From Bacillota bacterium (lineage in GTDB: Bacteria > Bacillota > Sulfobacillia > Sulfobacillales > Sulfobacillaceae), in assembly GCA_023512105.1 (NCBI GenBank), contig JAIMAE010000011.1, forward strand, positions 1-37,010: DNA of 37,010 bases, in the 5' to 3' direction. Both the position numbers and the translations under genes were made by a program. Every line of letters begins with the position of its first letter. Within the stretch, counting starts at the first letter, position 1. The notes beneath the pieces were generated by a model that searched no databases, was not told the origin of the DNA, and was given only the letters and a program-made list of their open reading frames with translations. Positions 8,810-13,913 of this stretch are shown piece after piece.

Positions 8810-9064
8810 GTGAGAGTGAGGCGAAACGCGTTGGGGGCACGGACAGGCAACTCGGATGCGGAAGCGTTTTGGCAGGCCGTTCGGGAGTGGGAGGCGGCGT
8901 GGGAGGCCTTCTCCGACAGCGCTCCCGAGTACCTCGACTACCACATTTGGCGCCTGAAGGCGGCAGAGGAACAACTCTCCTTGCTGCTGCACAAGCTGCG
9001 GGCCCGGCGACAGTCGGTGGAGACCACCGCTCCGGTTACGGGCGTGGCAGCAAGCGGGTCGTGA
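8810..9064 (+). CDS. Small DUF2508/YaaL-like protein
   Basis: A protein of up to 84 aa, highly charged and predicted helical. The pattern of a Trp/Ala-rich helix, then APEYLDYHIWRLKAAEEQL and a Leu/Arg-rich end matches the small DUF2508 (YaaL-type) proteins of Firmicutes, whose function is unknown. No signal or membrane segment is present. The start is unsure: GTG at 8810, GTG at 8816 and a TTG near 8831 are all possible, and none has a strong SD. The 3' end overlaps the end of convergent asnB by 29 nt. It lies 51 nt after folE with no clear terminator between. Confidence 0.55.
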   Translation: MRVRRNALGARTGNSDAEAFWQAVREWEAAWEAFSDSAPEYLDYHIWRLKAAEEQLSLLLHKLRARRQSVETTAPVTGVAASGS

Positions 9065-10922
9065 CCTTTCGCGCCCGCTGCCGACGGGCGAGCATCTCTT
9101 GCGACCACAGCTCCAGCATCAACAGGGCATAGATCTGGCGAGAGGCGGCGGGACCGCGGACGTCCAAGGCCCCCAGCCAATGCTCGACCTCGGCCGGGTT
9201 GACCCACTGGCGAATCAAGGCGCCGGGGTCGGTGAGCGTCTCCCAGGCCACCGCCCGCAGGCGACCGGTCAAAAGGTCGGTCAAGGGGGTCGGAAAGCCG
9301 CGCTTTTTGCGTTGGGCCACCGGCCGGGGCAACCGTCGCTGCGCCACCCGCCGGAGAAAATACTTGCCTTCCCCGCCTCGGCGCCGCCACTGGATGGGAA
9401 TGGCCAGGGCCAGCTCGACCAACCGGTGATCACAGTAGGGGACGCGGATTTCCAGGTGGTAGTGCATGCCGATCCGGTCTGCCTTCAACAACACGTCGTC
9501 GGGCAGAAACCAGCGGATGTCAAACCCCTGCATGGCTTGCAGGTCGGGCAGCGACCGGGCACGATTCCAGTATTCGCTGACCGCGGCGGTGCGGTCCGAA
9601 CCCCGCAGCGGCTCCCACAGCAGGCGGTCCTGTTGTTCAGGAGAAAAGGTAAAGCCGACGCCTCGGTAGCGCTCCGCGATGGGAATCAAAGAGCGGCGGG
9701 CCGCCCCCGAACCGGGCCACTCCAATTGGGCCCACCAGCGCCTGAGCGACGCCGGTAGGTACTGCAGGCGCGAGAGGCTGGCGGCTTCCCCGTATCCGGC
9801 GTACCCGGCGAAGATCTCGTCCGCCCCCTCGCCGGAGAGGACCACTCGGTGGCTTTGGGCGGCGTGGCGAGCCAAGCCGTCCAGGGGCAGGACGGTGGGG
9901 TCGGCCATCGGCTCATCCAGCACGTAGGCCAGCTCCGCCAGCCGTTCGGCGGTGATCACCCACTCGACATCCACCGGGTGGAGCCGAATCCCGAACTGGT
10001 CGGCCACCCGCCGGGCCCAGGCCGATTCGTCGTAACCTGGGTAGTCGGCACCGAAAGCGGCCGACCAGGCCTCCAACCGGCCCGGATAATGGCGGGCCGC
10101 GGCGGCCGCCAGCAAACTGGAGTCGAGGCCCCCGGAAAGAAACAGGCCGACCGGCACATCGGCCATCAAATGTTCGGCCACCGTCTCCTCCAACAGCGCG
10201 TCGAGGCGCTCTTCCCACTGCTCCGGGGACAGCGATTCGTCGATCGCCTCCAGCGCGGGCTGCCAGTAAAACCAGCGCTGGCGGCGCCCGTCGGGGTAAA
10301 GCCGCATCGCCTCCCCCGGTTCCAGCTTGGTGACGTCCTTGAGCATGGTCAACGGTGCTGGCACGAAGCGGTGAGCCAGATAGGTCGGAAGCTGGCGCAC
10401 ATCGATTTGAGGCGCAAACTCTTCTAGGGCCATCAGCCCCTTCAGCTCCGAGGCGAAGGCCACCGTCTGCCCGTGCTCCCAAAGGTAGAGCGGCTTTTGG
10501 CCGGTGCGGTCGCGGGCTAACAACAACACCCCTTCGCGCTCGTCCCACAGCGCCAGCGCGTACATCCCGCGCAGATGGGTCAGGAAATCGGCCCCGTACT
10601 CTTCGTAGAGGTGCACCAAAACCTCGCCGTCGGCGTCGCTGGCCAGGGTGTGGCCGCGGGCCAACACCTCTCGCCTGAGCTCGGGGTAGTTGTAGATCTC
10701 GCCGTTATAGACGGCCACCAGGTGTCCGGATTCCGAACGGTAGGGCTGGTGCCCGTGCAAGGGGTCTACGATCGCCAGCCGCCGCATGCCCATGACCAAC
10801 TGCCGGCCCTGGTAGCGGCCTTCACCGTCCGGCCCCCGGTGCTCCAAGGCCCGAAGCATGCGACCCAGCTCTTCGTTGCGCACCCGTCCATCCCGCCGCC
10901 ATATTCCGGCGATCCCGCAGAT
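9036..10922 (-). CDS. asnB: Asparagine synthetase, glutamine-hydrolysing
   Basis: AsnB uses ATP and glutamine to amidate aspartate. Read from 10922 the protein is 628 aa. The N-terminus I/M-CGIAGIWRRDGR supplies the Cys nucleophile of the class II glutaminase domain, followed by HRGPDGEG and VYNGEIYN. The synthetase domain has the PP-loop LFLSGGLDSSLLAAA, and SGEGADEIFAGY and ADRIGMHYHLEIRVPY follow. The odd point is the start. The codon before the catalytic Cys is ATC, and no ATG, GTG or TTG lies upstream in frame within the ~60 bases I read. The next usable start (GTG, 10883) would delete the active-site Cys. GGGGGAG lies 5 nt before the ATC. Confidence 0.93.
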   Translation of the reverse strand: MCGIAGIWRRDGRVRNEELGRMLRALEHRGPDGEGRYQGRQLVMGMRRLAIVDPLHGHQPYRSESGHLVAVYNGEIYNYPELRREVLARGHTLASDADGEVLVHLYEEYGADFLTHLRGMYALALWDEREGVLLLARDRTGQKPLYLWEHGQTVAFASELKGLMALEEFAPQIDVRQLPTYLAHRFVPAPLTMLKDVTKLEPGEAMRLYPDGRRQRWFYWQPALEAIDESLSPEQWEERLDALLEETVAEHLMADVPVGLFLSGGLDSSLLAAAAARHYPGRLEAWSAAFGADYPGYDESAWARRVADQFGIRLHPVDVEWVITAERLAELAYVLDEPMADPTVLPLDGLARHAAQSHRVVLSGEGADEIFAGYAGYGEAASLSRLQYLPASLRRWWAQLEWPGSGAARRSLIPIAERYRGVGFTFSPEQQDRLLWEPLRGSDRTAAVSEYWNRARSLPDLQAMQGFDIRWFLPDDVLLKADRIGMHYHLEIRVPYCDHRLVELALAIPIQWRRRGGEGKYFLRRVAQRRLPRPVAQRKKRGFPTPLTDLLTGRLRAVAWETLTDPGALIRQWVNPAEVEHWLGALDVRGPAASRQIYALLMLELWSQEMLARRQRARKVTTRLLPRP

Positions 10923-10970
10923 GGAGGCTCCCCCCTCTCCCTGGCTCCTGGTCTTACGCCGCCTGAGGCT

Positions 10971-10998
10971 TTTATGCTCAGCTTACCCACCCTAACAA
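10971..10998 (-). promoter_or_regulatory. Putative sigma-A promoter of asnB
   Basis: On the minus strand TTGTTA (10998-10993) and CATAAA (10976-10971) are separated by 16 bases. This would start transcription near 10964, about 40 nt before the asnB ATC start. It lies just downstream of the rpoD terminator, where asnB needs its own promoter. The match is moderate. Confidence 0.35.
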
Positions 10999-11024
10999 AT
11001 CTCAGTCCACCGGAAATCTTGGCC

Positions 11025-11058
11025 ACAAAAGGGCCAACCGCCCATTCGGCGGTTGGCC
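11025..11058 (-). terminator. Rho-independent terminator of the dnaG-rpoD unit
   Basis: A perfect 11-bp inverted repeat (11032-11042 with 11048-11058, 5-nt loop) begins 10 nt after the rpoD stop. On the minus strand it is followed by CTTTTG. Position and orientation fit termination of rpoD transcripts. Confidence 0.8.
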
Positions 11059-11067
11059 GAGCAAGCG

Positions 11068-12173
<1,106 letters not shown>

Positions 12174-12174
<1 letters not shown>

Positions 12175-13913
12175 CAATATCCCCCCCTCCGGACCTTGTA
12201 CCGTTGCAACCGCGACGACAGCTCTCGAATTTCGGCCAACACGTCTTGTGTCTCGTCTCCTCGCCTAACCCGTTCCTGTAAACGCTGCCAACGTCGCTCG
12301 TCGGCCGCGCGGCGCAGGGCCTCCACGTAGTCTGAAATCGCGCCGGGTCCCCCGTCAGGCCCCTCCCAAGCCAGTGCCTCCAACGCCAACGGTTGGAGTT
12401 CCTCCGGCAGGGAGTCCACCCACCGGGCCGGTTCCTTGGCCTCGCCGGCGGCAATGCTGGTCAGAAGGCGCTCAAATTCCGGGACGGGTTGCCATTCCGG
12501 CAATCCGGCCAACACCCGCGAAACTTCCTCGGGATGCCGAATCAGCGTCGCCAACAGTTGCGATACCACCGAGGGCAGCTCCGGCTTGGTTCTCACCATA
12601 TTATGCCTATTTTTTCCGGATGTATGCTTTTCCCCTTGCGCGTTCTCGAATCCCTGTGTTAGGATACTGGGATCCATATGCAGGATACGAGCCGCGGATT
12701 CCAAGTAACCACTGCGCTCCACCACATCCGGAACCGCCTCCAGCAACGGTCGCAGGGCGGCAAACCGCTCCGCCCGTTCCCGAATCCCGGAGACCTGTCG
12801 CAACTCCTCAAACAACAAATCCAGGTAGCCGACCCTGGCCTCCACGGCGGCTTGCAACGCCGAATCGCCCAATACCCGCCGGCACTCGTCGGCGTCTTTG
12901 CCTGCCGGCAGTCGCACCCGGTTCACCCGCAGCCCGGCCTGGGCCAGGATCGGAAACGCGCGCCTGGCCGCCTGCTCCCCCGCCGCATCCTGGTCGAAGC
13001 ACAGGTCGACCTCCGCTCCGAGTTTGCCTAAAAGGCGAGCCTGGTAGTCGGTCAGACTGGTTCCCAAGGTCGCCACCGCTTGGGACAAGCCGGCGGCATG
13101 GCAGGCCACCACGTCGAAATAGCCTTCAACCAACAACGGACGCCTTCCCGCCGCGATCGCGGGCTTGGCCACCTCCAGCCCATACAGGACGTGACCTTTG
13201 TGAAACAGCGGGGTCTCCGGCGAATTGAGGTACTTGGGCTCTTGGTCGGGCGCCAGCGCCCGGCCCCCAAATCCCACCAACCGCCCCTTCACGTCCCGGA
13301 TCGGAAAGATCAGACGGTGCCGCCAGCGGTCGTACACGCCGCCCCCGTTGGGCTTACGCACCACCAGGCCGGCCGCTTCCGCCTCCGCCGCCTCCACCCC
13401 CAGGCCCTCCAGATGGCGCCAGAGCAGGTCCCACCCGTCGGGCGCATAACCCAATTGGAAGCGTTCGGCCACCTCCGCCGGCACTTGGCGCTCCGCCAAC
13501 ACGGCCGTCACCGCCGCCTGGTGGGCTGCCGCCTGGCGGCGGAAGAAGGCGTGCGCCCACTCCAGCACTTGACCGAGGCGCACCAACCGCTGGCGATCGG
13601 GGTCCTCTGTCCCTTCCCAGGGGGGAAGATGGGCGGCCTCAGCCAGCTCTTGCGCCACGTCCCAGAACGACCGACCGGTGATGCGGGTAAGAAACGTAAA
13701 CACCGTGCCACCCGCGTGGCAGCCAAAGCAGTAAAACAGCTGCCGATCCGGGTCGACGCTAAATGAAGGGGTTTTCTCGGGGTGGAAGGGACATAATCCC
13801 CACCACCGACGCCCTTTACGACGTAGCGACACCCACCGACCGACCACTTCGACGATATCGGTGGCCTGTCTTACCGCGTCGATCCACGCCTCGGCCTCTG
13901 GCCGGGAAGGCAT
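12174..13913 (-). CDS. dnaG: DNA primase
   Basis: DnaG makes RNA primers at the replication fork. The 579-aa protein has the N-terminal CHC2 zinc-binding domain ([16 protein letters not shown], then [10 protein letters not shown]), the catalytic core with [13 protein letters not shown], and the TOPRIM domain ([13 protein letters not shown], then [16 protein letters not shown]). The C-terminal ~180 residues, expected to contact the helicase, are poorly conserved. The ATG at 13913 has GGGAG about 10 nt upstream. The gene is the first of a dnaG-rpoD unit, as in many Firmicutes, driven by the promoter at 14054-14082. Its leader of roughly 130 nt contains a strong hairpin. Confidence 0.96.

Follow-up and report, generated by a model that had tools for sequence, protein, structure and literature searches.

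Probable AUC/AUU initiation as a throttle at the asparagine synthetase gene asnB of the Sulfobacillus family

Genes with weak AUH start codons

Among the closest described systems is infC, the gene of initiation factor IF3, which combines an AUU, AUC or AUA start codon with a strong Shine-Dalgarno (SD) sequence. In E. coli, the weak start of infC allows autoregulation by IF3, according to a recent source (PMC13009471). That source cites E. coli pcnB, an enzyme gene held down by its weak AUU start, and describes three S. aureus genes with non-AUG starts of the AUH type, namely cvfC1 (AUU), ccpN (AUA) and citZ (AUA); an extended SD is described there for cvfC1 and ccpN, and output from the AUU and AUA sites in poor medium was about 10% of that from AUG (PMC13009471). 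An ATC start was reported as experimentally confirmed for rnhC of Listeria monocytogenes (PMC13068326). In vitro, IF3 lowers the products obtained from weak third-base pairs, as described for pairs other than AUC/CAU (PMC10158994).

The start of asnB in the Sulfobacillus family belongs to this known kind of weak AUH start. It shares its start class with infC, and AUC or AUU is found at both genes in the same genomes; however, infC encodes an initiation factor, whereas asnB encodes a biosynthetic enzyme for which no autoregulatory loop is possible. Like pcnB, asnB is an enzyme gene with a weak start, but the codon is AUC rather than AUU, and only in asnB does an N-terminal Cys chemically fix the start codon. 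The S. aureus set comprises other genes in other lineages and includes no AUC; citZ, which also encodes a metabolic enzyme, has its AUA in one strain lineage only, unlike the asnB start, which spans genera. Listeria rnhC has the same codon as asnB but is a ribonuclease gene from an unrelated lineage. What is new is the gene, the depth of AUC conservation in a biosynthetic enzyme and the pairing with infC; no report of an asnB AUC start, or of start-codon work on Sulfobacillus, was found in the open-licence literature.

The asnB locus

The window, i.e., the whole stretch of 37,010 nucleotides that was analysed, is contig C6 of the draft genome G000 (3,477,346 bases in 404 contigs). An asnB-type glutamine-hydrolysing asparagine synthetase gene occupies 9036..10922 on the minus strand and has 628 codons counting from the proposed start codon, ATC at 10922-10920 (minus). 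The following TGC (10919-10917, minus) encodes Cys2, the nucleophile as is well established for class II amidotransferases; Cys is found here in 34 of 34 aligned rows. Upstream, the frame is closed by an in-frame TAA (10985-10983, minus), and the 20 codons and the ATC that lie between this stop and the Cys include no ATG, GTG or TTG. The first canonical codon 3' of ATC is a GTG at codon 14 (ORF 9036-10883), which excludes the Cys. A sequence-only reading of the same DNA had placed the asnB start at ATC on these grounds, i.e., the absence of a nearby standard start upstream, the loss of the nucleophile from the next start downstream and an SD 5 nt before ATC, and all three observations hold; the SD-like element is GGGGGGAG at 10935-10928 (minus), with a 5-nt spacer and a predicted duplex energy of -11.6 kcal/mol.

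The predicted protein scores 447 bits against TIGR01536 (cut-off 267.1) with Cys at residue 2; profile positions 1-517 lie on residues 2-543, so that position 1 of the profile aligns to the Cys. Pfam domains GATase_7/GATase_6 and Asn_synthase were identified, and the PDB matches include the E. coli AsnB structure 1ct9. AsnRS scores above its cut-off in 32 of the 34 family genomes, which indicates that free asparagine is needed; GatB is likewise found in 32 of 34, and with both enzymes the family may use both routes to Asn-tRNA. G000 contains three additional genes above the TIGR01536 cut-off (336.9, 506.1 and 363.1 bits, the last a partial piece), one of which outscores the asnB of the window (506.1 vs 447). 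Hence, the latter may be neither the only nor the main asparagine synthetase of G000.

The conserved upstream neighbour is an rpoD-type sigma factor gene at 11068-12177 (minus), which was named by sequence recognition and whose ORF is listed from a TTG. A further ORF at 12174-13913, probably dnaG, has a stop that overlaps the likely ATG of rpoD at 12174-12179 (minus), which suggests translational coupling between the two. In the interval between rpoD and asnB, a consensus scan located a terminator-like hairpin at 11032-11058 (minus) with 11 pairs, nine of them G-C, followed by CTTTTGTGGC. The asnB leader at 10963-11075 is unusually folded (z -2.27), probably on account of this hairpin, and the folding of the 100 nt around the asnB start is ordinary (z 0.50). 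A simple scan of 10800-11200 gave no sigma-70-like promoter, and no riboswitch or known RNA was matched in the leader by Rfam up to E 1 (10700-11200).

Conservation of the start codon in the family

The family, placed by NCBI in Clostridiales Family XVII Incertae Sedis, was sampled with 34 genomes from 11 genera. An asnB orthologue is present in each, and its N-terminus is readable in 33, the exception being G033 (61% complete). ATC (22) or ATT (2) stands directly before the Cys in 24 of these 33 genomes and in eight of the 11 genera (two copies in g1, one in g2, two in g4, one in g5, eight in g6, one in g7, two in g8 and seven in g9). The codon is ATC in G023, matched to Sulfobacillus thermotolerans, and ATT in G005, matched to S. 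acidophilus DSM 10332. The comparison with sister genomes proposed in the sequence-only reading supports its start: the one same-genus orthologue (73% protein identity) also has ATC, most genera of the family keep the codon, and ATG appears only in genera further removed (g3 and g11, plus relocated copies of g7 and g10). Within the same-genus pair, 18 of the 30 nt upstream of ATC are changed, and the changes in codons 2-14 fall at seven third positions and one first position; this pattern indicates that selection at the protein level begins at the Cys. In 34 aligned rows, composed of 33 family copies and one from another family (G035), Cys2, Ile4 and Gly6 are invariant.

In all 24 ATC/ATT copies, rpoD lies upstream in the same orientation, at a distance of 99-335 nt. 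ATG is found in seven other rpoD-linked family copies (G003, G012, G011, G018, G021, G024 and G027), and the asnB of G035 also lies behind rpoD and has GTG; the weak start is therefore dispensable. Three further ATG copies (G007, G010 and G015) have no rpoD within 1.5 kb. In G007, two close asnB copies (the L118/L030 pair) were observed, the ATC copy behind rpoD and the ATG copy elsewhere, and in G010 and G015 only a copy away from rpoD was seen. Outside the family, ATG or GTG precedes the Cys in 73 of 78 asnB relatives from named genomes, and the other five have ATG after a register shift.

On a protein tree of 37 rows, the ATC/ATT label needs at least 4 changes, compared with a mean of 10.8 for shuffled labels (0 of 500 as low), which implies that it has persisted over long branches. 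This history fits one gain and three losses, though there may have been several gains. G035 was placed inside the family on this tree, on an unstarred branch.

Evidence that the AUH codon is the start

No ATG, GTG or TTG occurs between the stop and the Cys in 12 of the 24 AUH copies (the window and 11 others, from six genera). In six of these (G002, G008, G014, G016, G022 and G030), and also in G032 (ATT), the stop is only two codons upstream of the AUH codon. The other 12 copies have an in-frame ATG or GTG at codon -3 or -2, mostly within the SD; the predicted SD of that codon itself is weak in eight (2.3 to -3.3 kcal/mol) and reaches -6.0 to -6.1 kcal/mol, close to the AUH value, in four (G005, G020, G026 and G031). 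At the S. acidophilus locus (L018, G005), which reads ATG-GCT-ATT-TGC, the ATG two codons before ATT has a nearly equal predicted SD and the choice of start is ambiguous. Far-upstream TTG codons with a good predicted SD were noted in G028 (-10.9) and G006 (-7.7).

The predicted anti-SD duplex energy at the AUH codon is -6.8 kcal/mol or lower in all 24 copies (mean -8.8), hence stronger than -6 kcal/mol throughout; for 490 Ile codons in the interior of these genes the mean is -3.4. Ten asnB copies with ATG or GTG have a mean SD energy of -10.0; the AUH copies thus have no stronger SD. The anti-SD sequence used for these energies was found as the 16S tail in six of 36 genomes, including G005, G017 and G007 of the family but not the draft G000.

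The codon itself does not behave as a free Ile codon in its third base. ATC occupies the start in 22 of 24 copies, but it is the codon of Ile4 in seven of the 24 (Fisher p 1.7e-5) and accounts for 216 of the 536 Ile codons in the gene interiors as a whole (p 3.9e-7), both p values being only indicative since the rows are related. The asnB codon has the features of a conserved AUH start: it is preceded by a strong SD, it is conserved across species and, in the window and 11 further copies, it is the sole position compatible with the N-terminus, no ATG, GTG or TTG being in frame.

Alternative explanations

The sequence-only reading had regarded a single-base error, with ATG read as ATC, as the main alternative, and the window does come from a draft of 404 contigs. 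This objection falls away, as ATC recurs in the independently assembled same-genus genome with 73% protein identity, ATC is found in 20 more family genomes and ATT in two more, and two of the matched genomes are finished. An error of this kind is now barely conceivable: on the comparison of genomes, the ATC at asnB is not a sequencing or assembly error, since most genera kept ATC/ATT. Cleavage of a propeptide exposes the Cys in PurF, and an upstream in-frame start with a short propeptide removed in the same way would leave the ATC codon internal. The ATG or GTG at -3 or -2 in 12 of the 24 copies, with its own SD near -6 kcal/mol in four, could serve such a start, as in GTG-GTT-GCA-ATC-TGC (g9) or the S. 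acidophilus sequence given above. However, the frame is closed to ATG, GTG and TTG in the other 12 copies, the window included, the GTG at -3 lies mostly within the SD (GAGGTG-N6-ATC) and is usually devoid of a strong SD of its own, and the upstream nucleotides are unconserved (18 of 30 changed within the genus), which makes this explanation unlikely.

Initiation at the GTG of codon 14 would give a Cys-less, ammonia-dependent enzyme with ATC-TGC as a relic. That GTG is what gene callers restricted to ATG, GTG and TTG would choose, and its predicted SD is -6.5 kcal/mol, but the invariance of residues 2, 4 and 6 in 34 rows and the mainly third-position changes in codons 2-14 speak against a relic, as does the first downstream canonical codon, which is unconserved and lies anywhere from codon 5 to 22; such a start is very improbable. 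Equally little room is left, indeed slightly less, for an initiator tRNA with a GAU anticodon that would read AUC at full efficiency and remove any throttle. An exact-match search for initiator tRNA motifs in 22 of the 34 family genomes gave 14 matches to a GAT-type anticodon-stem motif, but none of the 14 was a tRNA according to ARAGORN and the motif is absent from G000 and G001, where three of the four CAT-type matches are tRNA-Met by ARAGORN. Genuine AUC/AUU initiation that acts as a throttle on AsnB synthesis is very probably the correct reading of these sequences.

Occurrence at other genes

In the family, all 20 readable infC loci (that of G013 being unreadable) have ATC or ATT where the start is expected, and at least five of the 20 also have an in-frame ATG or GTG upstream. 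The infC starts observed in these relatives, at L146 and other loci, are ATC, ATT or ATA. At L131, L132 and L135 (g11), the ATC has an ATG or GTG two codons upstream of it. The product of glmS has the same need for Cys2, and this gene starts canonically at all 30 loci read (ATG 23, GTG 6 and TTG 1), of which 19 belong to the family.

Start codons were further compared in 836 ortholog pairs (1,212 ORFs) from about 2.4 Mb of G017, G005, G001 and the window, the stretches having been picked for containing asnB and infC. Over all codon classes, 112 columns were flagged; the 97 non-AUH ones were taken as background, and the 15 AUH columns that were inspected comprise six of infC, eight of asnB and one other. 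Visual inspection put this last column down to a misregister, since an ATG with an SD follows. No convincing conserved AUH start beyond infC and asnB was found in the 836 pairs or in an earlier set of 382, and a lineage-wide loosening of start choice was rejected on the same two comparisons. An aligned canonical start with an SD within 40 columns was recovered in only 314 of the 836 pairs, so the sensitivity is partial and further AUH genes may have escaped notice.

Proposed mechanism and significance

The position and conservation of ATC/ATT, the lack of any other in-frame start in 12 copies, the SD, the selection on Cys2 and the rpoD synteny are read from the sequences, and from them we infer initiation at the ATC itself and the steps after it. 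The strong SD would place the ordinary initiator fMet-tRNA, with its CAU anticodon, on AUC, which would be decoded as Met to give fMet-Cys-Gly-Ile. Aminopeptidase removes Met from Met-Cys, and its removal here would leave Cys as the N-terminal nucleophile. The imperfect AUC/CAU pairing would make initiation slow, and the AUC start probably limits the amount of AsnB made, i.e., it would act as a conserved throttle. Modulation of asnB by IF3, as at infC and as hinted at in the sequence-only reading, is plausible by analogy.

Since the catalytic Cys has to be N-terminal, the start codon can be placed without experiment, and asnB would thus offer a natural example, unusually clean, of AUC initiation that has long been conserved in a metabolic gene. 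A gene caller restricted to ATG, GTG and TTG necessarily removes the nucleophile here, and the annotated AsnB would then look ammonia-dependent. A single syntenic locus carries ATC, ATT, ATG or GTG in different genomes and infC can serve as an internal control, which makes control of a biosynthetic gene by IF3 directly testable. A more speculative and rather doubtful extension is that the level of IF3 sets both asnB and infC through their common AUC/AUU start, so that asparagine synthesis would rise with initiation capacity when ribosomes exceed IF3. If this were true, an amino-acid biosynthetic enzyme of the Sulfobacillus family would be wired into the IF3 circuit.
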